Positions 881 through 13,279 of a stretch of DNA of 32,855 nt are shown piece by piece. The DNA is taken from the NCBI GenBank assembly GCA_019242155.1, contig JAFAWA010000409.1:1-32855 (forward strand), given 5' to 3'. The DNA is from Terriglobia bacterium. Its GTDB lineage: Bacteria; Acidobacteriota; Terriglobia; Bryobacterales; Bryobacteraceae. The notes beneath the pieces were generated by a model. The model saw nothing but the letters and a program-made list of their open reading frames with translations. It had not been told where the DNA came from and ran no database searches. Position numbers and translations under genes: made by a program. Each line of letters opens with the position of its first letter. Position 1 is the stretch's first letter.

Positions 881-2266
881 TCAGTTCTTTATCGTCAAAG
901 TGTATGTCGGCGATTGCACACCGTTCACGATCACCACCAGCGGATAATTCCCATCCGCAAGAGGCTTCGGTAGAGTCACATTGATCTGGTAATCGGCTGC
1001 GAATTGACTGATGAAGCCCGAAGCCTGAAGAGCGTTTCCATTCAGCATCACAGTCACGGCGTTGGCGAGAGGAGATCCGCTCTTGGGGCCGGGTTCCTGA
1101 CCTGCGGCCACGGCCGGGCTCGAGGGTCCGAAGCCGGTTCCCCATATAGAAATCGTTTCTCCGGGCTTCGGGGCCACGGTGTTCACTCCAGCGAACGTTC
1201 CGGGTGCCGCGGCAAACGAAAAATCGCCATGCGTAGCGCCCGGTTGATTGTTCGGCCACGGCACCAGCGCCGGGCCGGCGAGATTTACCTGGGTCGAAAA
1301 AGGATCGCTCGTTCCTGCCGCGGTGGTCACCACTACTTGTGCCGGGCCCGCGGGGATATCCGGGGCCTGAACGTTGATCTGGTTCGGACTGATCGCGAAG
1401 ATGTATGCCGGAGCGCCGCCGATGGTTACACTCGTTACATCATCGAGCTCGGTGGGAAGCTTGCCGTCCGGCGTGATGGACTTGCTCCAATCGTCAAACT
1501 GCGTGCTGGTCAGGTTGCTGCCTTTGATCGCTATGAAAGAACCGGGAACAACTCCCGCTATCGAATCGGAAACGGCATTCGAAACACTTGTTATTACCGC
1601 TCGCCCTATGGAAGCGGCGGGTGTGAGGGTATAAGTTGTGGCGTAAATGTGATCACCATTCGGAGTAAGATCCCCGTTGGCCGCGTTCCCCGCTACATAG
1701 AGGGTAATGTTGCCGACGTTAGTTGCAGGCGGTGTCCAATTAAACGAGTAAGTAGCGGAACCGTGGGTCCCCTTGGTAGTTGTGTAACCGGTCAGGCTGT
1801 GCTCGATATACTGCACCGTGTACCCGTCGGGGCAGGTCTGAGGGGTCGAACTTACGTGCTGAAAAACGAAGAGGTTGGGCTGCGAACACATGAGCGTTGT
1901 AAGAGCGTCGCTCGAAGCGAAGGTGCCGGCCATGGTAGTGGGATCGGAACTGAGGCGGGCGCTGAGCTCAAATCCCCATGCGATTTGCGTGCCGGCGGGA
2001 TCCGCGATAGTTACTGTCAAATGCTGTGTTACTCCGGGAGAATAGGTCTGCCCATTCGGAAAATTTACACTTACACTGCCTTGGTGACTTGGATCGTTGG
2101 TGGTTCCCGTGTGGCAGCCGGAGGTGGCGCAGGTCGCGCCGGAGTGCTCCGAGGGCACAGCCACGTATCCGGGATCGGGCCCGAACTCATATGCCCAAAC
2201 CACCACCGGCACTAAACCTAAAAGCACGCCCGCTTTGGCCAGCAGGATTTTACGATTCCTTTCCAC
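881..2266 (-). CDS. Secreted choice-of-anchor/Reeler-like protein with TIGR03437-type C-terminal domain
   Basis: Predicted exported protein of 461 residues; function unknown. The start chosen is the GTG at 2266, preceded by AAAAGGGGAAAAGA and giving a clean signal peptide (basic RNRK, then LLAKAGVLLGLVPVVVWA). The longer open frame to 2584 overlaps mutY and is rejected. After the signal peptide comes a Cys-X4-Cys-His block (CATSGCHTG) of the kind seen in choice-of-anchor V/Reeler-like domains, followed by a beta-rich region of about 170 residues. The second half (from about GRAVITSVSNAVSD to the end) holds IPT-like repeats. It closes with WGTGFGPSSPAV and a YQINVTLP strand, typical of the TIGR03437 C-terminal domain abundant in Solibacter. 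Domain assignment is by recall of motifs. Its position between mutY and xseA looks incidental to repair. Confidence 0.8.
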   Translation of the reverse strand: MERNRKILLAKAGVLLGLVPVVVWAYEFGPDPGYVAVPSEHSGATCATSGCHTGTTNDPSHQGSVSVNFPNGQTYSPGVTQHLTVTIADPAGTQIAWGFELSARLSSDPTTMAGTFASSDALTTLMCSQPNLFVFQHVSSTPQTCPDGYTVQYIEHSLTGYTTTKGTHGSATYSFNWTPPATNVGNITLYVAGNAANGDLTPNGDHIYATTYTLTPAASIGRAVITSVSNAVSDSIAGVVPGSFIAIKGSNLTSTQFDDWSKSITPDGKLPTELDDVTSVTIGGAPAYIFAISPNQINVQAPDIPAGPAQVVVTTAAGTSDPFSTQVNLAGPALVPWPNNQPGATHGDFSFAAAPGTFAGVNTVAPKPGETISIWGTGFGPSSPAVAAGQEPGPKSGSPLANAVTVMLNGNALQASGFISQFAADYQINVTLPKPLADGNYPLVVIVNGVQSPTYTLTIKN

Positions 2267-2361
2267 TCTTTTCCCCTTTTCTAAGAACACTCGATGGAAT
2301 AAAAGCACTCGATCTGAAGTCTTAGATGGATCGCTCTCCGCGGCTGTTACGGAGACAAATG

Positions 2362-4183: not shown

Positions 4184-5302
4184 TTATCGGGTCGAAATGT
4201 CGGTTCCGTTAGCGGCCGGTACGCCGGAGGGGTAGTAGCCTTTGCGCGCGCGGATGAGCACATCGGGTACATCCACCTCGACTTTGATTCGCCGGAACTG
4301 GCGCGGCTTCTCATCCTGACCCACGTCCGGAATGTAGCGTAATACGTATTGTGTGCTGATGTCTCCCGATAGCGATCCGACCGCATTGATAATGCTTTTG
4401 GAAATCGCCGCTTCGTATCCGCCGGTGCCGACGGTGAACGAGTAACAGCCATCATCGGAAGGATTGCAGAAGTAAGTTCCGACAGCAGTGTCCTTATAAA
4501 TGTTCAGCAGCGGATACTCCACTTTGCCGCCGGTATCCGCCGCTAAGCGCTCGAGCACCGCCCGATCGGGGTTATCGAATCCGTAGGCCGAAGTGCTGAT
4601 ACCGTAAATCGTCACGAGATTGCGCTGGGCCAGCTCGACCACCTCTTCCAGGCTCTTCTTACTCGCGCTATCGTGTCCATCGCCGACGATAACGATGACT
4701 CGCCGCGGCTCGTACGGTTCGCCCTTCACCAGCTCACGCCGCGTGCAGGCCATGTAGATCGAATCGAACAAGGCAGCGCCGCCGCCCGGTTTGAGGTTGC
4801 GGATCTTGTCGGTAATCTTGTCGCCATCCCAGGTTGTGTTGACGGCCAGCTCCGCGTCATTCGCGTACGAGATCAGGTATCCGGTGTATCTCTTATCACC
4901 GGGCAGAAGGTTCCAGACCAGTTCCATGATGGAATCCTGGTACCTCTTCCAGTGAATACGCGTGTTGTTGCTCATATCGAGCAGAAAGCCGATGACTACG
5001 GGCTGCTTTTGCGAGTGGCTGAAAAATTCTATGCGCTGTGGTTTGCCCTCGTCGAGCACGCGGAAATCCTTCGCAGTCAGGTTGGACAGGAACCGGCCCT
5101 TTTGATCGGTCACCGTCACCGGGATGATGACTTCGTTTACGTTTACCTGAATGCGGGTGTCCGGCTGCTCTACTTGCCCGCTGGTTTGCGGCGCGCTCCC
5201 CTCTGGCGTGCCCGGCGCCGGCGCCTGTTGCGGAACCGCAGGCAGAGAAAACAGCAAGGCGCAAAGTAACAGAACCACGGATATGCGAATCATCGTAGAC
5301 AC
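4184..5302 (-). CDS. VWFA-related acidobacterial-type exported protein
   Basis: 372 residues with an N-terminal signal peptide (MIRISVVLLLCALLFSLPAVPQQ). Then comes a beta-sandwich segment typical of the family (VNEVIIPVTVTDQKGRFLSNL, KDFRVLDEGKPQRIEFF) and a von Willebrand A domain from about residue 100 (VVIGFLLDMSNN, GGGAALFDSIYMACTRRE, RVIVIVGDGHDS, TIYGISTSAYGF). It ends in RARKGYYPSG, as TIGR03436-type proteins do. The usual MIDAS DxSxS is DMSNN here, so the last serine is replaced. The start is GTG at 5302 with AAGG upstream; ATG at 5293 is equally possible. It likely works in the periplasm or at the surface in protein contacts; the partner is unknown. It lies 50 bases downstream of the Rid gene. 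Confidence 0.88.
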   Translation of the reverse strand: MSTMIRISVVLLLCALLFSLPAVPQQAPAPGTPEGSAPQTSGQVEQPDTRIQVNVNEVIIPVTVTDQKGRFLSNLTAKDFRVLDEGKPQRIEFFSHSQKQPVVIGFLLDMSNNTRIHWKRYQDSIMELVWNLLPGDKRYTGYLISYANDAELAVNTTWDGDKITDKIRNLKPGGGAALFDSIYMACTRRELVKGEPYEPRRVIVIVGDGHDSASKKSLEEVVELAQRNLVTIYGISTSAYGFDNPDRAVLERLAADTGGKVEYPLLNIYKDTAVGTYFCNPSDDGCYSFTVGTGGYEAAISKSIINAVGSLSGDISTQYVLRYIPDVGQDEKPRQFRRIKVEVDVPDVLIRARKGYYPSGVPAANGTDISTR

Positions 5303-5352: not shown

Positions 5353-6513
5353 TCAGTCCTTGGCGGCGACGGCATCCACGGCGAAACCCGCGTCGGCGGA
5401 AGGAAGCCCTTCAAATTGGAGGGCCGTACCGGCGGGAAAGCTCTCCGGGGTAAAAAACAGCGGAATCTGCCGGCGCACCTGGTCCTCTATGCTGCGGGAC
5501 AAAGGATAGACGCGCAGGAACGCAACATCCTTCAACGATGCGCCCGCAGGCTCTAAGGACTTGCCGAGGCGTTCGAGGGCTAAATGGGCGTCCGAGTCTT
5601 CGAAACCGAACGAAGCCTGCGAGCCCGTCAGGATCACGCGAGGCGAAGCTAAGAGGCTAACCTCGGATGTTTCCCGCGCCGAAGCACCAGGTCCGTTCCG
5701 GAAGGCTAACCGGCGGCCGCTTTCGCGAAGGCCGGCCACAGCTTCACACGCGGCCATGGCGCGCTGCGGCGCACGCTGCGGCTGTACGTAATCCAATGCC
5801 GCCTTCGGGTATTCCGACTGCACGCTATCGCGAATGCCGTTTAACTTATCGAGCGAGCTCAAAAAACACGTGACTCGCAACACGTCCCCGGGGGCCGCGG
5901 CCGCGAGCTGAACCGCGTTTTTCAAATCCGCGAGCGACTTTGCAAGCAGCGGCGCCACAGGCTCCTGGGGGTCGTCCGAAAACGCCGGCTGGGCCGAGAA
6001 GAAGGCGAGCCCTCCAGGATAGAGTTCTCTTTTGCCGTTGGCCACCGCTTCCAGTTCGATTTGAGCACCGGGCAGCGCAAGCCCGCCGGCCAAAATCAGG
6101 CTCAAAGCGGGTAACGGCTGGTGCCGCTCGGTGAACATTTCACTTACCAGTTCGCGCACGCGCCGCAAGTCCCCGGAGCCGGCCACAAACGCTCGGATGT
6201 GCAGAACGGGGTTGCCCGCGCACTCCCGCTCCAGGCTGCGCAGGGCGTCGCGGACCTGCTGGGAAAGCAATCCCTTGGCCGCGAGCGGCGTTACGTGAAA
6301 GGTTAAGTGCCGGGTCTCGCCGACAACCGCGGCAGGAAGGTCTTTGGGAAGCGGAAGAGCTTGCGTCTCCTCTTCCTTCTTCTTCCTGGCGGCGAGTCCG
6401 GTAGCCGCTGCGAGAGATGCCACTAGGGCCAGCGCCAGCAGCTTTCGCGTATTCGCCGATAATTCCCTAACCCGCCACGTACAACCGATTATACCGGACG
6501 GTGCGCCGGCCAA
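5353..6513 (-). CDS. Exported protein with three tandem Rid (YjgF/YER057c)-like domains
   Basis: About 386 residues from the TTG at 6513; the true start is uncertain. No ATG or GTG precedes the hydrophobic segment KLLALALVASLAAATGLA, and a perfect TATAAT lies inside the 5' part of the open frame, so a shorter start is possible. Three Rid-like modules can be traced. The first runs from HLTFHVTPLAAKG to IELEAVA, the second from ELYPGGLAFFSAQPAF to MAACEAVAGL, the third from PRVILTGSQASFGF to FAVDAVAAKD. Each shows the alternating long-helix and strand pattern (DLKNAVQLAAAAPGDVLRVTCFLSSLDKLNGI is the clearest). The arginine that binds the substrate carboxylate in RidA seems to survive only in the second module (APQRAMAACEAV). 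Deaminase activity is therefore doubtful. It is divergent from pdxR. Confidence 0.72.
   Translation of the reverse strand: MAGAPSGIIGCTWRVRELSANTRKLLALALVASLAAATGLAARKKKEEETQALPLPKDLPAAVVGETRHLTFHVTPLAAKGLLSQQVRDALRSLERECAGNPVLHIRAFVAGSGDLRRVRELVSEMFTERHQPLPALSLILAGGLALPGAQIELEAVANGKRELYPGGLAFFSAQPAFSDDPQEPVAPLLAKSLADLKNAVQLAAAAPGDVLRVTCFLSSLDKLNGIRDSVQSEYPKAALDYVQPQRAPQRAMAACEAVAGLRESGRRLAFRNGPGASARETSEVSLLASPRVILTGSQASFGFEDSDAHLALERLGKSLEPAGASLKDVAFLRVYPLSRSIEDQVRRQIPLFFTPESFPAGTALQFEGLPSADAGFAVDAVAAKD
6488..6493 (-). promoter_or_regulatory. Candidate -10 box (TATAAT) for the minus-strand operon
   Basis: Reading on the minus strand gives a perfect TATAAT. The -35 region is weak (AATTTG or ATTTGG at 16-17 bases, TTGGCC at 14), so an activator may be needed. 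It lies just beside the direct repeats between this operon and pdxR, and transcription would start near 6480, inside the longest open frame of the Rid gene. Confidence 0.45.
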
Positions 6514-6573: not shown

Positions 6574-6601
6574 GAGCCGAGGCCGCCGCTCCCCATCCAA
6601 T

Positions 6602-8089
6602 ATGGTACGCTTTTTGTCAATGGACGTCCTGCCGCTGGATCATCAGTCCGAAGCGCCGCTCTACCGGCAACTCTATGATCAGATAGTAGAACAGATTCAA
6701 TCCGGCCATTTGGCTAAGGGGGAAAGACTGCCGGCCACCCGCGAATTGGCTGGCCACCTTGGACTGAACCGAACCACGGTTTCCGCAGCCTATGAGCTGC
6801 TGGAAGGGAGAGGGTTGATCTCGAGCCACGTCGGGCGCGGAACATTCGTGACCGGTAGCCCGGAGACGGCCGGATCCGGTTTGAACTGGTCCGCGCAACT
6901 GGAGCGCGAAGGTGCGCCGCTGCGCAATTCCTTTCCATCCGCGGGCAAGGGACTCATCAGCTTTGCGGTGTCGCGGCCGGCGGATGCGATGTTTCCCCTG
7001 GACGAATTTCGTGCCGCGGGCGCCGCGGTAATGGGGCGGGCCGACTTGGCGGAGATTCTGCAGCTGGGCTCTCCGAGCGGCTACGAGCCTCTGCGGCGAA
7101 GGCTCCTCGAAGATGCCCGGCGGCAGGGTCTGGCGTCATCCGGCGATGAGCTGATAGTTACCAACGGCTGCCAGCAGGCACTGGATTTAATTTCGCGGGT
7201 TCTCTTGCGTGCCGGCGATAGGGTGGTGATCGAAGACCCCGCTTACACGGGCCTGAAAAATCTTCTGACCGGATCAGGCGCCGAGTTGATCGGAATTCCA
7301 GCCGGTCCGGAGGGCATGGACATCTCGCATTTGCGCCGCGTACTGGTTCGCGAACGGCCGCGGTTCCTCGTGGTGACGCCCAACTTTCAAAACCCTACGG
7401 GAACCACCTTGCCGCTGGCTTCACGGCAGGCTCTGCTGGAGTGTGCCCGCGCGGTGAATGTGCCTGTGATTGAAAACGACCCGTATTGCGAACTCCGGTA
7501 CCACGGCCAGGCGCTTCCGGCGCTCAAGCAACTGGATCAGCATAACGGCACTGTGTTGCTGCGCAGCTTCTCCAAGGTGAGCTTCCCGGGGCTGCGCGTG
7601 GGCTGGGCCCTCGGACCGAAGCCGGTAATGGAACGGCTGCGGCAAGCCAAGGAGGCTTCCGACCTTCACACCGACCAGCTCTCGCAGGCCATACTGCTCG
7701 AGTTTGCCGAGTCAGGACGGCTCGAGGCACACCGCGCACGCATCCTCCAAGCGGGAGCCGAGCGGCTGGCGGCCACAATCGCGGCCTGCCGCGACTACCT
7801 ACCGGACGGAACGCGCTGGGTCGAGCCGCAGGGCGGCATGAATCTATGGGTGCGGCTGCCGGATCCATTCGATACCGTCGAGTTGCTGGCGAGAGCGCAA
7901 AGGCAGGGCGTCACGTTTCTGCCGGGCCGCTACTTTGAAGTGGCGCGGCGCAATCCGGGCGCGCTTCGTTTGAGCTTCGCGGACCTCCGGCCGGATGAGA
8001 TCCGCAAAGGCCTCGAGATTTTGGGGCAGGTGGCCGCGAGCGAGAGCCAGAAGGCGATCGCCGGCGGGCCGGTTCCGGCCATGGTTTGA
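6602..8089 (+). CDS. pdxR: MocR-family regulator PdxR (GntR HTH fused to class I aminotransferase domain)
   Basis: PLP-sensing transcription factor that controls vitamin B6 synthesis. Up to 495 residues: an N-terminal winged HTH of GntR type (PLYRQLYDQIVEQIQSGHL, LPATRELAGHLGLNRTTVSAAYELLEGRGLI, GRGTFV), then a full aminotransferase fold. Visible parts include NGCQQALDL, EDPAYTG, TPNFQNPTGTTLP, ENDPYCELRY and the PLP-binding lysine in LLRSFSKVSFPGLRVGW (Lys325 from the first start). An ATG at 6602 and another at 6620 (MDVLPLDHQSEAPLY) are both possible. The second fits other family members better, and TATGGT at 6601-6606 could then be its -10 with a very short leader. Position directly before pdxS and pdxT supports the name PdxR over other MocR regulators. 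Confidence 0.9.
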   Translation: MVRFLSMDVLPLDHQSEAPLYRQLYDQIVEQIQSGHLAKGERLPATRELAGHLGLNRTTVSAAYELLEGRGLISSHVGRGTFVTGSPETAGSGLNWSAQLEREGAPLRNSFPSAGKGLISFAVSRPADAMFPLDEFRAAGAAVMGRADLAEILQLGSPSGYEPLRRRLLEDARRQGLASSGDELIVTNGCQQALDLISRVLLRAGDRVVIEDPAYTGLKNLLTGSGAELIGIPAGPEGMDISHLRRVLVRERPRFLVVTPNFQNPTGTTLPLASRQALLECARAVNVPVIENDPYCELRYHGQALPALKQLDQHNGTVLLRSFSKVSFPGLRVGWALGPKPVMERLRQAKEASDLHTDQLSQAILLEFAESGRLEAHRARILQAGAERLAATIAACRDYLPDGTRWVEPQGGMNLWVRLPDPFDTVELLARAQRQGVTFLPGRYFEVARRNPGALRLSFADLRPDEIRKGLEILGQVAASESQKAIAGGPVPAMV

Positions 8090-8142: not shown

Positions 8143-9033
8143 ATGTTTGATTTCAAGAGCGAGCAGTTTCGAGTGAAGGTTGGCCTGGCGGAGATGCTCA
8201 AGGGCGGCGTGATCATGGACGTCACCAACGCCGAGCAGGCAAAGATCGCCGAAGATGCAGGCGCTTCGGCCGTGATGGCGCTCGAGCGCGTGCCGGCGGA
8301 TATCCGCAAAGAGGGCGGCGTCGCGCGCATGGCAAGTATCGCCAAGATTGAAGAGATCATGCGAACCGTCTCGATTCCAGTGATGGCCAAAGCGCGCATA
8401 GGTCACTTCATGGAGGCCCGCATTCTGGAGGCTTTGGGGGTGGACTACATCGACGAGAGCGAAGTATTGACGCCCGCCGATGAAGAGCATCACATAGCCA
8501 AAACCGACTTTCGCATACCGTTTGTCTGCGGCGCGCGCAATCTGGGTGAAGCCCTGCGCCGCATCGCCGAAGGCGCGGCGATGATTCGCACCAAAGGTGA
8601 AGCCGGCTCGGGCAATATCGTAGAGGCGGTGCGCCACATACGCACCATCGTGAAAGAGATGAAGCAGCTTACGGTTCTCGGCCAGGAAGAGCTGGTACAC
8701 GAGGCTAAGCAGCTTCAGGCGCCGCTTGAACTGGTGGAACTGGTCGCAAAACTCGGTAAGCTGCCTGTGCCCAACTTCTCGGCCGGCGGCATCGCCACCC
8801 CCGCCGACGCCGCGCTTGTGATGCAACTCGGGGCCGAAGCGGTGTTCGTGGGTTCGGGAATTTTCAAATCGTCCGATCCCGCCGCGCGCGCCAACGCAAT
8901 CGTGCAGGCGGCCAAGAACTACAACAATCCCGAGAAACTGCTCGAGGCCAGCCGCGCGCTCGCAGACGCCATGACCGGACTTGATATCGCTAAGATGGAG
9001 CGCTCTGAACTGTTGCAGACCCGGGGCTGGTAA
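8143..9033 (+). CDS. pdxS: Pyridoxal 5'-phosphate synthase subunit PdxS
   Basis: Builds PLP from ribose 5-phosphate, glyceraldehyde 3-phosphate and ammonia supplied by PdxT; forms a dodecamer in the cytoplasm. 296 residues, the normal length. Seen: Asp26 in GGVIMDV, the Schiff-base lysine Lys83 in VMAKARIGH, the second lysine Lys151 in [12 protein letters not shown], and the phosphate loop with [12 protein letters not shown] and [10 protein letters not shown]. The ATG follows a strong AGAGGAG about 8 bases upstream. It starts 53 bases after pdxR and is followed directly by pdxT (TAA then ATG), so the three genes most likely share a transcript. Confidence 0.98.
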
Positions 9034-9612
9034 ATGAAACGAGCCGGCGTGCTGGCATTACAGGGTGATTTCGCAGCCCATGCGGATGCGCTCCGGAGAG
9101 CCGGCGCCGAACCGGTCCTGGTGCGTGAGGCCGGTCAATTGCAGCAGATCGATGGTCTGATTATTCCGGGCGGGGAGAGCACCACTATGCTCAAGCTGCT
9201 TCACCTGGATAAGCTGTTCGATCCGCTCGCGCATTTCGCCGCTACCAGACCGGTCTTCGGCACCTGCGCGGGTGCGATTCTCCTGGCCCGGCAAGTCTCC
9301 AATCCGGCTCAGGAGAGCCTCGCCGTGATGGATATCGACGTAGAACGCAACGCCTACGGCCGGCAACTCGACAGCCGCGTTGCGGAGATCGAACCGGAGC
9401 CTGAATTTCGCGACCGCACCGCGCCAGGCAAGCTGGAGACGGTGTTCATTCGCGCTCCGGTTATACGGCGCACCGGCCCCCGAACTAAAGTCCTGGCGCG
9501 ATATAATGGCGACCCCGTGCTGGTCGAAGAAGGACGCCACATGGTCGCCACGTTTCACCCGGAGCTTACGCCGGATGCCCGGGTACACTCGTTGTTCCTG
9601 GAGAAGTTGTGA
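9034..9612 (+). CDS. pdxT: Pyridoxal 5'-phosphate synthase glutaminase subunit PdxT
   Basis: Class I glutamine amidotransferase that hydrolyses glutamine and channels ammonia to PdxS. 192 residues. Seen: GVLALQGDFAAH at the N-terminus, IIPGGESTTM, nucleophile Cys78 in FGTCAGAI, and His175 with Glu177 in TFHPEL completing the triad. The ATG is the first codon after the pdxS stop, so translation is probably coupled. The stop overlaps the next gene's GTG by four bases. Confidence 0.98.
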   Translation: MKRAGVLALQGDFAAHADALRRAGAEPVLVREAGQLQQIDGLIIPGGESTTMLKLLHLDKLFDPLAHFAATRPVFGTCAGAILLARQVSNPAQESLAVMDIDVERNAYGRQLDSRVAEIEPEPEFRDRTAPGKLETVFIRAPVIRRTGPRTKVLARYNGDPVLVEEGRHMVATFHPELTPDARVHSLFLEKL

Positions 9613-11986: not shown

Positions 11987-13279
11987 ATGCGTTTCGCCCT
12001 GATCAACCCGTTCTGGACATTTGACCGCAGTATCTACTTCGGCTGCCGCGAGCCTCATTTTCCACTCGAGTACGGATATGCAAAGGCGCTTCTAGAAAAG
12101 GCCGGCCACGAGGCGGAGATTTTCGATGCGCACCTGGAGGATCTTGCGCCCGAACAACTGTACAGCCGCATTCGTGAATTCCGGCCGGACTTTCAGGTAA
12201 TCACTTCCGCACCCAGTTATCTCTTCTGGCGTTGCGCGCCTCCGGAACTGCGAGTGCCGCAGGAGACCGTTGAATTGCTGCGGGACGCGGGAGGAACTCT
12301 GGTCGCCGTGGGCCCGCATGCTTCGACCACCCCCCGCGCTACCCTACGCAAGCTCGGAGCCGATGTTGTGGTGCTCGGCGAATGCGAGGAGGTGCTGCCC
12401 GAACTCACAGGTGATTGGAGCCGCGTGCCCTCCCTGTGCTTCTGGCGCGATGGAGAACCGGTTATTACCGGGACACCGCACGCGAGCAACATGGAGCGCT
12501 TACCCGCGCTCCGGTGGCCTCCCGGAACGATTGCGCGCCATGTACATCATCATCACCGCTTCGAGGCTCCGGCCGAGGGCCCCGGAGCGGAAATGGAAGC
12601 GTCGCGCGGATGCCCCTACCATTGCACTTTTTGCGCGAAGGACAACTTTCGGGATGATTACCGGAGACGCCCTCTGGCAACGGTTCTCGAGGAGATCGGC
12701 GGACTGATTGAGGCCGGGGTCGAGTACGTGTATTTCATCGACGAGATCTTTCTTCCCAACCGGCCGCTGCTGGAAGCGCTCATTCCATATCGCCTGAAGT
12801 TCGGCATTCAGACGCGCATCGATCTGTGGAATCCGGAGATGTTGGACCTGCTGGGACGCGCCGGGTGTGTTTCGGTCGAGGCCGGTGTGGAAAGCATTAC
12901 CGAAGAAGGCCGCGCCCTGCTCGACAAAAAATGTAAGCTCTCGACAGGCCAGTTGGCCGAGCGCCTGATCTTCGCCAAGAGCCGCATTCCCTTTATACAG
13001 GCGAACCTCCTCGAAACGGCTGAAGACGATAACGAAGCAGTGGAGGCGTGGCGTGCCTATCTCGAGCGGCACGGCGTGTGGGCGAACAGGCCTGTGCCGC
13101 TATTTGCTTATCCCGGCTCGCCGCAATATACGCGCCAATGGGGTGCTACGGAGGATGACGCCTGGGAGCGCGCCCATTCGGATTACCTCGCGGCCAATTC
13201 GGTCTTCAGCGACATTCAGGAGCAGCGGCCGAGTCCGCTGGTTCACCTGGAGTTGCCGTCGCCCCATGGAAATTCCTGA
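11987..13279 (+). CDS. B12-binding-domain radical SAM enzyme of a glycan-type cassette
   Basis: 430 residues. The N-terminal third is a Rossmann-like cobalamin-binding domain (RFALINPFWTF, EYGYAKALLEKAGHEAEIFDAH, TLVAVGPHASTTP, DVVVLGECEEVLPEL). The cobalt-ligating DxHxxG is only partly recalled by DAHLED, so base-off B12 binding is uncertain. The radical SAM core has Cys209-X3-Cys213-X2-Cys216 in SRGCPYHCTFCAKDNF, then EAGVEYVYFIDEIFLPN and VEAGVESIT. A HVHHHHR stretch precedes the core. The protein matches my memory of the TIGR04295 group, which occurs in saccharide cassettes. The reaction is unknown; methylation or rearrangement of a sugar or carrier is possible. Its 3' end overlaps the next gene by 14 bases. 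Confidence 0.88.
   Translation: MRFALINPFWTFDRSIYFGCREPHFPLEYGYAKALLEKAGHEAEIFDAHLEDLAPEQLYSRIREFRPDFQVITSAPSYLFWRCAPPELRVPQETVELLRDAGGTLVAVGPHASTTPRATLRKLGADVVVLGECEEVLPELTGDWSRVPSLCFWRDGEPVITGTPHASNMERLPALRWPPGTIARHVHHHHRFEAPAEGPGAEMEASRGCPYHCTFCAKDNFRDDYRRRPLATVLEEIGGLIEAGVEYVYFIDEIFLPNRPLLEALIPYRLKFGIQTRIDLWNPEMLDLLGRAGCVSVEAGVESITEEGRALLDKKCKLSTGQLAERLIFAKSRIPFIQANLLETAEDDNEAVEAWRAYLERHGVWANRPVPLFAYPGSPQYTRQWGATEDDAWERAHSDYLAANSVFSDIQEQRPSPLVHLELPSPHGNS

Follow-up and report, generated by a model that had tools for sequence, protein, structure and literature searches.

What does a bacterial protein do that joins three Rid modules in one chain, carries them behind a signal-like segment, and is encoded beside the genes for PLP synthesis? 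The question is raised by an open reading frame (ORF) in the window, by which we mean the whole stretch of 32,855 nucleotides analyzed here, a contig of a Bryobacteraceae genome. The frame and the coordinates of the ORF that an earlier note had given proved correct, and its parts are as follows.

5353 to 6513, reverse strand: triple-Rid ORF, 386 amino acids counted from a TTG at 6513
6488 to 6493, reverse strand: TATAAT, a perfect –10-like hexamer, within the ORF as listed
6388 to 6444, reverse strand: signal-peptide-like segment KLLALALVASLAAATGLAA (residues 24 to 42)
6331 to 6387, reverse strand: charged low-confidence linker, RKKKEEETQ... (residues 43 to 61)
6034 to 6330, reverse strand: Rid module 1 (residues 62 to 160), the most conserved, with invariant Arg107, Asp115, Arg117, Arg118, and Glu155
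5722 to 6033, reverse strand: Rid module 2 (residues 161 to 264), with invariant Thr215, Cys216, Arg247, and Glu257
5356 to 5721, reverse strand: Rid module 3 (residues 265 to 386), with invariant Gly297, Phe302, and Arg315

The proposal of the earlier note that one chain holds three Rid modules was borne out by both profile search and structure prediction. The Pfam profile PF01042 matched the whole protein in three stretches (E = 1.6e-13, 51.2 bits, cut-off 27.3), and this match together with the predicted Rid fold places the protein in the Rid (YjgF/YER057c/UK114) superfamily. Modules 1, 2, and 3, cut out as residues 56 to 160, 161 to 264, and 265 to 386 and searched singly, scored 24.2, 19.5, and 17.3 bits, respectively, each below the cut-off of 27.3. 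The NCBIfam Rid hydrolase model TIGR00004, which has a cut-off of 106.25 bits, scored 23.2, and no NCBIfam model reached its own cut-off on the protein. The three-module layout is not a product of chance, because all three modules are kept in the 32 relatives (40 to 61% identical to the window protein) that were aligned with it; this 33-row alignment omits weaker matches without a locus, L035 to L037, whose contigs were already represented, and L041 and L042, which are partial or duplicated. From the same alignment, AlphaFold2 predicted three complete α/β units, and not fewer, with a mean pLDDT of 90.8 and a pTM of 0.84; the pLDDT is mostly 93 to 98 over residues 61 to 386, with one block of ten at 84, and the N terminus is disordered.

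The structural neighbors of this model are informative about how the three units may be arranged. Its top match in VIA-align was the chorismatase 4bps (Z 12.8, 2.8 Å, 185 residues, model positions 66 to 384), whereas single Rid chains gave Z values of 8 to 9.5 over about 105 to 119 residues. The first rows of the Foldseek search were orotic or cyanuric acid hydrolases and chorismatases, followed by single Rid chains; the TM-scores of these first rows were only 0.2 to 0.28, so they are to be read as topology-level matches. Many structural alignments with Rid proteins span model positions 56 to 386, as judged by their end points only, a hint that in the model the N- and C-terminal segments may both contribute to a single Rid unit, as would be expected of a ring that is closed. 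The suggested pseudo-trimer therefore gains partial support from the pTM and from the chorismatase match, and the modules may close into a ring. The chorismatase likeness is one of fold only, since no chorismatase occurs among the 59 PDB sequences at E ≤ 1 in a family-profile search, and PF01042 was the only Pfam profile at E ≤ 1, that of the cyanuric acid hydrolase family being absent. Pancreatic RNases, which appeared in the same PDB search at E values of 0.1 to 0.9, were taken as chance.

The idea of a pseudo-trimer of Rid units is itself already established by published systems. The 3x-RidA proteins, of which EF_0115 of Enterococcus faecalis is an example, are described in the available text of Niehaus et al. 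2015 (PMC4433059) as presumed covalently linked trimers of three tandem Rid domains, and are counted there among the RidA subfamily, whose defining feature is the catalytic Arg. The window protein likewise strings three Rid domains together in a single chain, but, compared by description, it differs from 3x-RidA in that its modules lack Arg105 and in that it carries an apparent export signal, the term “signal peptide” having no occurrence in the available text of PMC4433059. The earlier view of an exported triple Rid as unusual is overstated as regards the triple form itself, which is published. Chorismatases of the FkbO/Hyg5 type (PDB 4bps, 5a3k, and 5ag3) resemble the window protein in being single chains with a pseudo-trimeric Rid-like core, a likeness from fold alone, with no detectable sequence match. 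Cyanuric acid hydrolase consists of three concatenated YjgF-like units, with a proposed origin by concatenation and three Ser-Lys pairs in its central barrel (Peat et al. 2013, PMC3758960, available part); the cyanuric acid hydrolase/barbiturase group, or Toblerone fold (PDB 4bvq and 5hy0), shares the three-unit plan of the window protein but has neither a Pfam nor a sequence match to it. The FIST domain of FBXO22 has three repeats, pseudo three-fold symmetry, and a Rid-related plan, and chorismatases and cyanuric acid hydrolases are named as having the same plan (2024 preprint PMC11185555, available part); it stood at Foldseek rank 26 for the window model, but it serves in protein recognition, lacks an obvious pocket, and has no sequence match to the window protein. 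The RidA/YjgF/UK114 homotrimers agree with it in module fold and in the PF01042 match, but they consist of a single module and carry Arg105 and Glu120.

The functional residues of RidA are Tyr17, Arg105, and Glu120, and Arg105 is essential in the RidA assays cited in the available text of Niehaus et al. 2015 (PMC4433059). A plausible carboxylate-binding arginine had been assigned to the middle module, an assignment that has to be given up: in three alignments this residue, Arg247, falls on RidA Arg112 (“ARLPK”) and not on Arg105. An HMM alignment with solved RidA proteins sets “alnlvqtqRap” over “aRsaVEVARLPk,” with the invariant Arg247 on the Arg of ARLP and the catalytic Arg of RidA on a variable position, and a MAFFT alignment with the Rid paralogues of the source genome has an identical register. 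The position of Arg105 is occupied in the window protein by Leu137, Leu240, and Gly362 in modules 1, 2, and 3, and 97 of the 99 module positions over the 33 rows are without arginine (33/33, 31/33, and 33/33, respectively). Module 1 has Leu, Val, Ile, or Phe at this position, and module 3 has Ser in 14 rows, Gly in 11, and other residues in 8. At the position of Glu120, a glutamate is present in 1, 16, and 0 of the 33 rows for modules 1, 2, and 3; the window protein has Glu153 (the sole module 1 Glu of the 33 rows), Ala255, and Ala378. Two residues further on, modules 1 and 2 each have Glu in 33/33 rows and module 3 has Asp or Glu in 33/33. Conservation is centered on module 1, where 13 of 95 columns are at least 97% conserved, compared with 4 of 102 in module 2 and 4 of 124 in module 3, and where the five charged residues listed above are invariant.

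These residues bear directly on whether the protein is an exported imine/enamine deaminase, that is, an ordinary secreted 3x-RidA in which another residue replaces Arg105. It has the same fold and superfamily as RidA, the Glu120 equivalent is kept in module 2 of 16/33 relatives, and about 10% of RidA proteins have Ser in place of Arg (Niehaus et al., PMC4433059, available text), a residue found in module 3 of 14/33 rows; because such Ser-bearing RidA proteins exist, the loss of the arginine alone is no proof that activity is lost. However, the essential Arg105 is missing from all three modules of the window protein, Glu120 is gone from its modules 2 and 3, the NCBIfam Rid hydrolase score falls short of its cut-off, and the source genome has a separate signal-bearing single Rid (L002) with both Arg and Glu. 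We consider the deaminase quite unlikely, and some relatives could retain weak residual deaminase activity (Glu in 16/33 and Arg in 2/33 rows of module 2). With the catalytic arginine gone from all three modules, the classical reaction is probably not what the triple Rid performs.

Where this would take place depends on the N terminus, and the start of the listed ORF is doubtful although its frame is right, the TATAAT at 6488 to 6493 lying inside it. This hexamer suggests that transcription of the window gene starts near 6480, which would leave the TTG at 6513 upstream of the mRNA. The motif TANAAT occurs within 30 nucleotides upstream of the start in 19/29 relatives, compared with a shuffled mean of 0.7 (29 of the 33 alignment rows were counted; the window, L008, L020, and L039 were left out), which suggests leaderless mRNAs for this gene across the family. 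The window gene, too, probably has a leaderless mRNA, and the TTG is unlikely to be the true start. From 6513 to the hydrophobic segment, the reading frame of the window copy offers no further ATG, GTG, or TTG. Translation may begin at a non-standard codon, or the assembly may contain an error of about one base near the start. A search of the window with Rfam at gathering thresholds returned no match.

The earlier note had placed the modules behind a signal or anchor segment, and a hydrophobic N-terminal stretch is indeed found in 33/33 rows (a 12-residue window with a mean Kyte-Doolittle value of at least 1.7 in a simple hydrophobicity scan), although the sequence of the first ~45 residues is unconserved. 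The refuting case named in the earlier note, a cytoplasmic protein once the start is corrected, did not arise, as relatives with a clear ATG still start with the hydrophobic segment. The N-region is net positive in 31/33 rows, and the hydrophobic segment is mostly followed by a small-residue or Ala junction, a Lys run, Glu/Asp, and Thr-Gln, with junctions such as PAQ|RKKK, LSAQ|KKK, and PLAA|KKKK that look like Sec cleavage sites. By the hydrophobicity scan only, nearly all 33 rows show the Sec-type pattern of positive N-region, hydrophobic core, and small residues, and the triple Rid is apparently exported, to the periplasm or the outer face.

A Lys run straight after the hydrophobic segment is unusual in Sec substrates, and it could mark an uncleaved anchor or even a reverse orientation. 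In the latter case the protein would be membrane tethered but cytoplasmic, held by a reverse signal anchor with N-out/C-in topology, and Rid chemistry would take place inside. The Lys/Arg run directly follows the hydrophobic segment in nearly all rows, and the next 15 residues are often as positive as the N-region; however, the N-regions are positive too in 31/33 rows, the junctions commonly read Ala-x-Ala or Ala-Gln ahead of the lysines, and the stretch after the lysines is strongly acidic. Two cysteines of module 2, Cys216 (33/33) and Cys256 (31/33), are conserved in a mature protein that is otherwise cysteine-poor; they are possible disulfide partners or functional thiols, and a disulfide, which they would fit without proving one, would speak against the reverse anchor. 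We regard this topology as very unlikely.

The reading that we lean towards, and hold to be somewhat probable, is that the triple Rid is an exported non-deaminase single-chain pseudo-trimer with one remodelled site. According to this reading, the three modules would close into a RidA-like ring, and the three inter-module clefts would no longer be imine-deaminase sites. The pattern of conservation suggests one differentiated site, mainly of module 1, that would bind an anionic small molecule, either a carboxylate or a phosphate, and the bound ligand might be sequestered or turned over by a different chemistry. The 33 rows show strong conservation of the residue set that would lie behind such a site, namely, the five of module 1 together with Thr215, Arg247, and Glu257 of module 2. 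The protein would then have taken the path on which cyanuric acid hydrolase and chorismatase arose from concatenated Rid trimers. When the three subunits of a symmetric enzyme are fused, each site is free to evolve separately.

Within Bryobacteraceae the gene is nearly universal. A family profile matched 218/237 Bryobacteraceae genomes at E < 1e-40 and 228/237 at E ≤ 1e-3, and 143 of the 148 nearly complete, clean genomes of the family at E ≤ 1e-3. Among 61 genomes around the source, all 37 of the same family had a match, compared with 1/24 outside it, at 9.9e-4. In a search of the phylum, 181/396 genomes matched at E ≤ 1e-3, mostly with one module of ordinary Rid proteins; matches of that kind were excluded from the relatives of the triple. 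Exported triples are also found in the acidobacterial families coded f26 and f64 (L046 to L052) and f36 (L060). In a module tree of modest resolution (63 rows, 119 columns), the first modules of the window family and of f26/f64 cluster with one another (95/85), as do the third modules (99/97), while module 2 has no clear placement; this colinear pattern supports one shared ancestral triple for the window family and f26/f64, two distant families. The modules of L060 group together (100/98), which argues that this triple arose independently. One phylum thus offers a comparison between an old exported triple with diverged sites and a younger exported triple with modules still alike. Module 3 lies near the exported single Rids L054, L055, and L058, which likewise lack Arg105. 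The L060 protein (1102 to 2343, reverse strand) has Ser, Ser, and Ala at the Arg105 position and keeps Glu120 in all three modules. A model of one f64 exported triple, built from 6 sequences, is of low confidence (pLDDT 57.6, pTM 0.54), and its geometry was not used. The source genome itself encodes L002 (G000:C125:4190-4516, a frame of 149 amino acids), a single Rid with a signal-like N terminus that keeps the Arg and Glu of RidA; an exported, apparently canonical Rid thus coexists there with the triple Rid. A plasmid collection held no match to the window protein, and gave two weak partial Streptomyces matches, annotated as RidA family, to the f64 relative.

The triple Rid does adjoin PLP-synthesis genes, as the earlier note had it, and profiles confirmed PdxR, PdxS, and PdxT. 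The neighboring features are as follows.

6620 to 8089, forward strand: pdxR, MocR-like pyridoxine-biosynthesis regulator, divergent (NF052282, 338.5 bits, cut-off 320, equivalog)
8143 to 9033, forward strand: pdxS, PLP synthase lyase subunit
9034 to 9612, forward strand: pdxT, PLP synthase glutaminase subunit
6596 to 6611, forward strand: conserved box TCCAATATGGTACGCT at the promoter of pdxR, whose coding start (6620) is downstream of it
4184 to 5302, reverse strand: acidobacterial VWA-domain protein (TIGR03436), downstream neighbor with the same orientation as the triple Rid

The PdxR-pdxST neighborhood of the triple Rid is old and recurrent. In 19/35 family loci Rid has a divergent PdxR no more than 7.3 kb away, and in 17 of those no more than 2.8 kb away. 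Among the matches listed (150 Rid and 149 pdxS places, with 94 genomes in common, of 237 searched), Rid and pdxS are within 10 kb in 35/94 genomes, divergent in all 35; they are on different contigs in 57/94 and far apart on one contig in 2/94. A 16-base box, CCAATATGGTATG, is present in 19/19 pdxR upstream regions, about 8 to 15 or more nucleotides before the pdxR start, with scores of 14.7 to 28.9. It overlaps the likely pdxR promoter and is a candidate site for self-control by PdxR. Upstream of Rid the box is absent (best ≤1.7 bits) at the 16 loci without a PdxR match and the 7 separated loci. A shared PdxR operator for Rid was rejected, as the box stays with pdxR and not with Rid when the genes are apart; no candidate PdxR operator thus precedes Rid there as it would in a PdxR regulon, and control of Rid by PdxR outside the shared intergenic space is not supported.

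It is against this background that a role in vitamin B6 homeostasis has to be weighed, in which PdxR would control Rid together with pdxST and the protein would act on B6 vitamers or aldehyde adducts outside the cytoplasm. The divergent PdxR-pdxST neighbor and the 35/94 linkage, 35/35 of it divergent among the matches listed, are in its favor, as are the RidA-family genes in five MocR regulogs of a published survey (PMC5320631, available part). However, Rid is kept although the two genes are on different contigs or far apart in the 57 and 2 genomes given above, the box is absent where they are separated, and exported triples of other families have no pdx neighbor (0/4 loci). We give this role a small chance; the link of the triple Rid to vitamin B6/PLP is positional only and unproven, because the box does not accompany Rid when the genes are apart.

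A bolder version of the pseudo-trimer reading, which we consider rather unlikely, is that the concatenated Rid trimer was put to yet another use, here outside the cytoplasm. An ancient exported pseudo-trimer would predate at least three acidobacterial families, its three imine sites would have been dismantled in favor of a single new site, located in module 1 or in the central barrel, and it would now act in the periplasm, as a receptor or an enzyme, and in essence belong to the core proteins of Bryobacteraceae; its ligand might be a B6 vitamer or a reactive aldehyde. Neither an exported triple Rid nor the triple-Rid gene of Bryobacteraceae was the subject of any paper in the open-licence literature searched. 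As far as that literature goes, it is new that a triple Rid carries an apparent export signal, that none of its modules keeps the catalytic Arg, that it is retained throughout a family, and that its ancestry is shared between acidobacterial families. As a near-universal protein of a large family of soil bacteria, the triple Rid is also tractable, with a soluble predicted domain, named candidate residues, and the RidA assay as a negative control.

Further genes of these neighborhoods were noted. The VWA protein is downstream of Rid in 13/35 family loci and a PfkB-type sugar kinase in 15/35; in L086 (9058 to 10173) and 14 other loci from many genera, this kinase is on the same strand and resembles KDG kinases. 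In the window, positions 11987 to 13279 encode a B12-binding radical SAM protein, with an NAD-dependent epimerase and a glycosyltransferase next to it.
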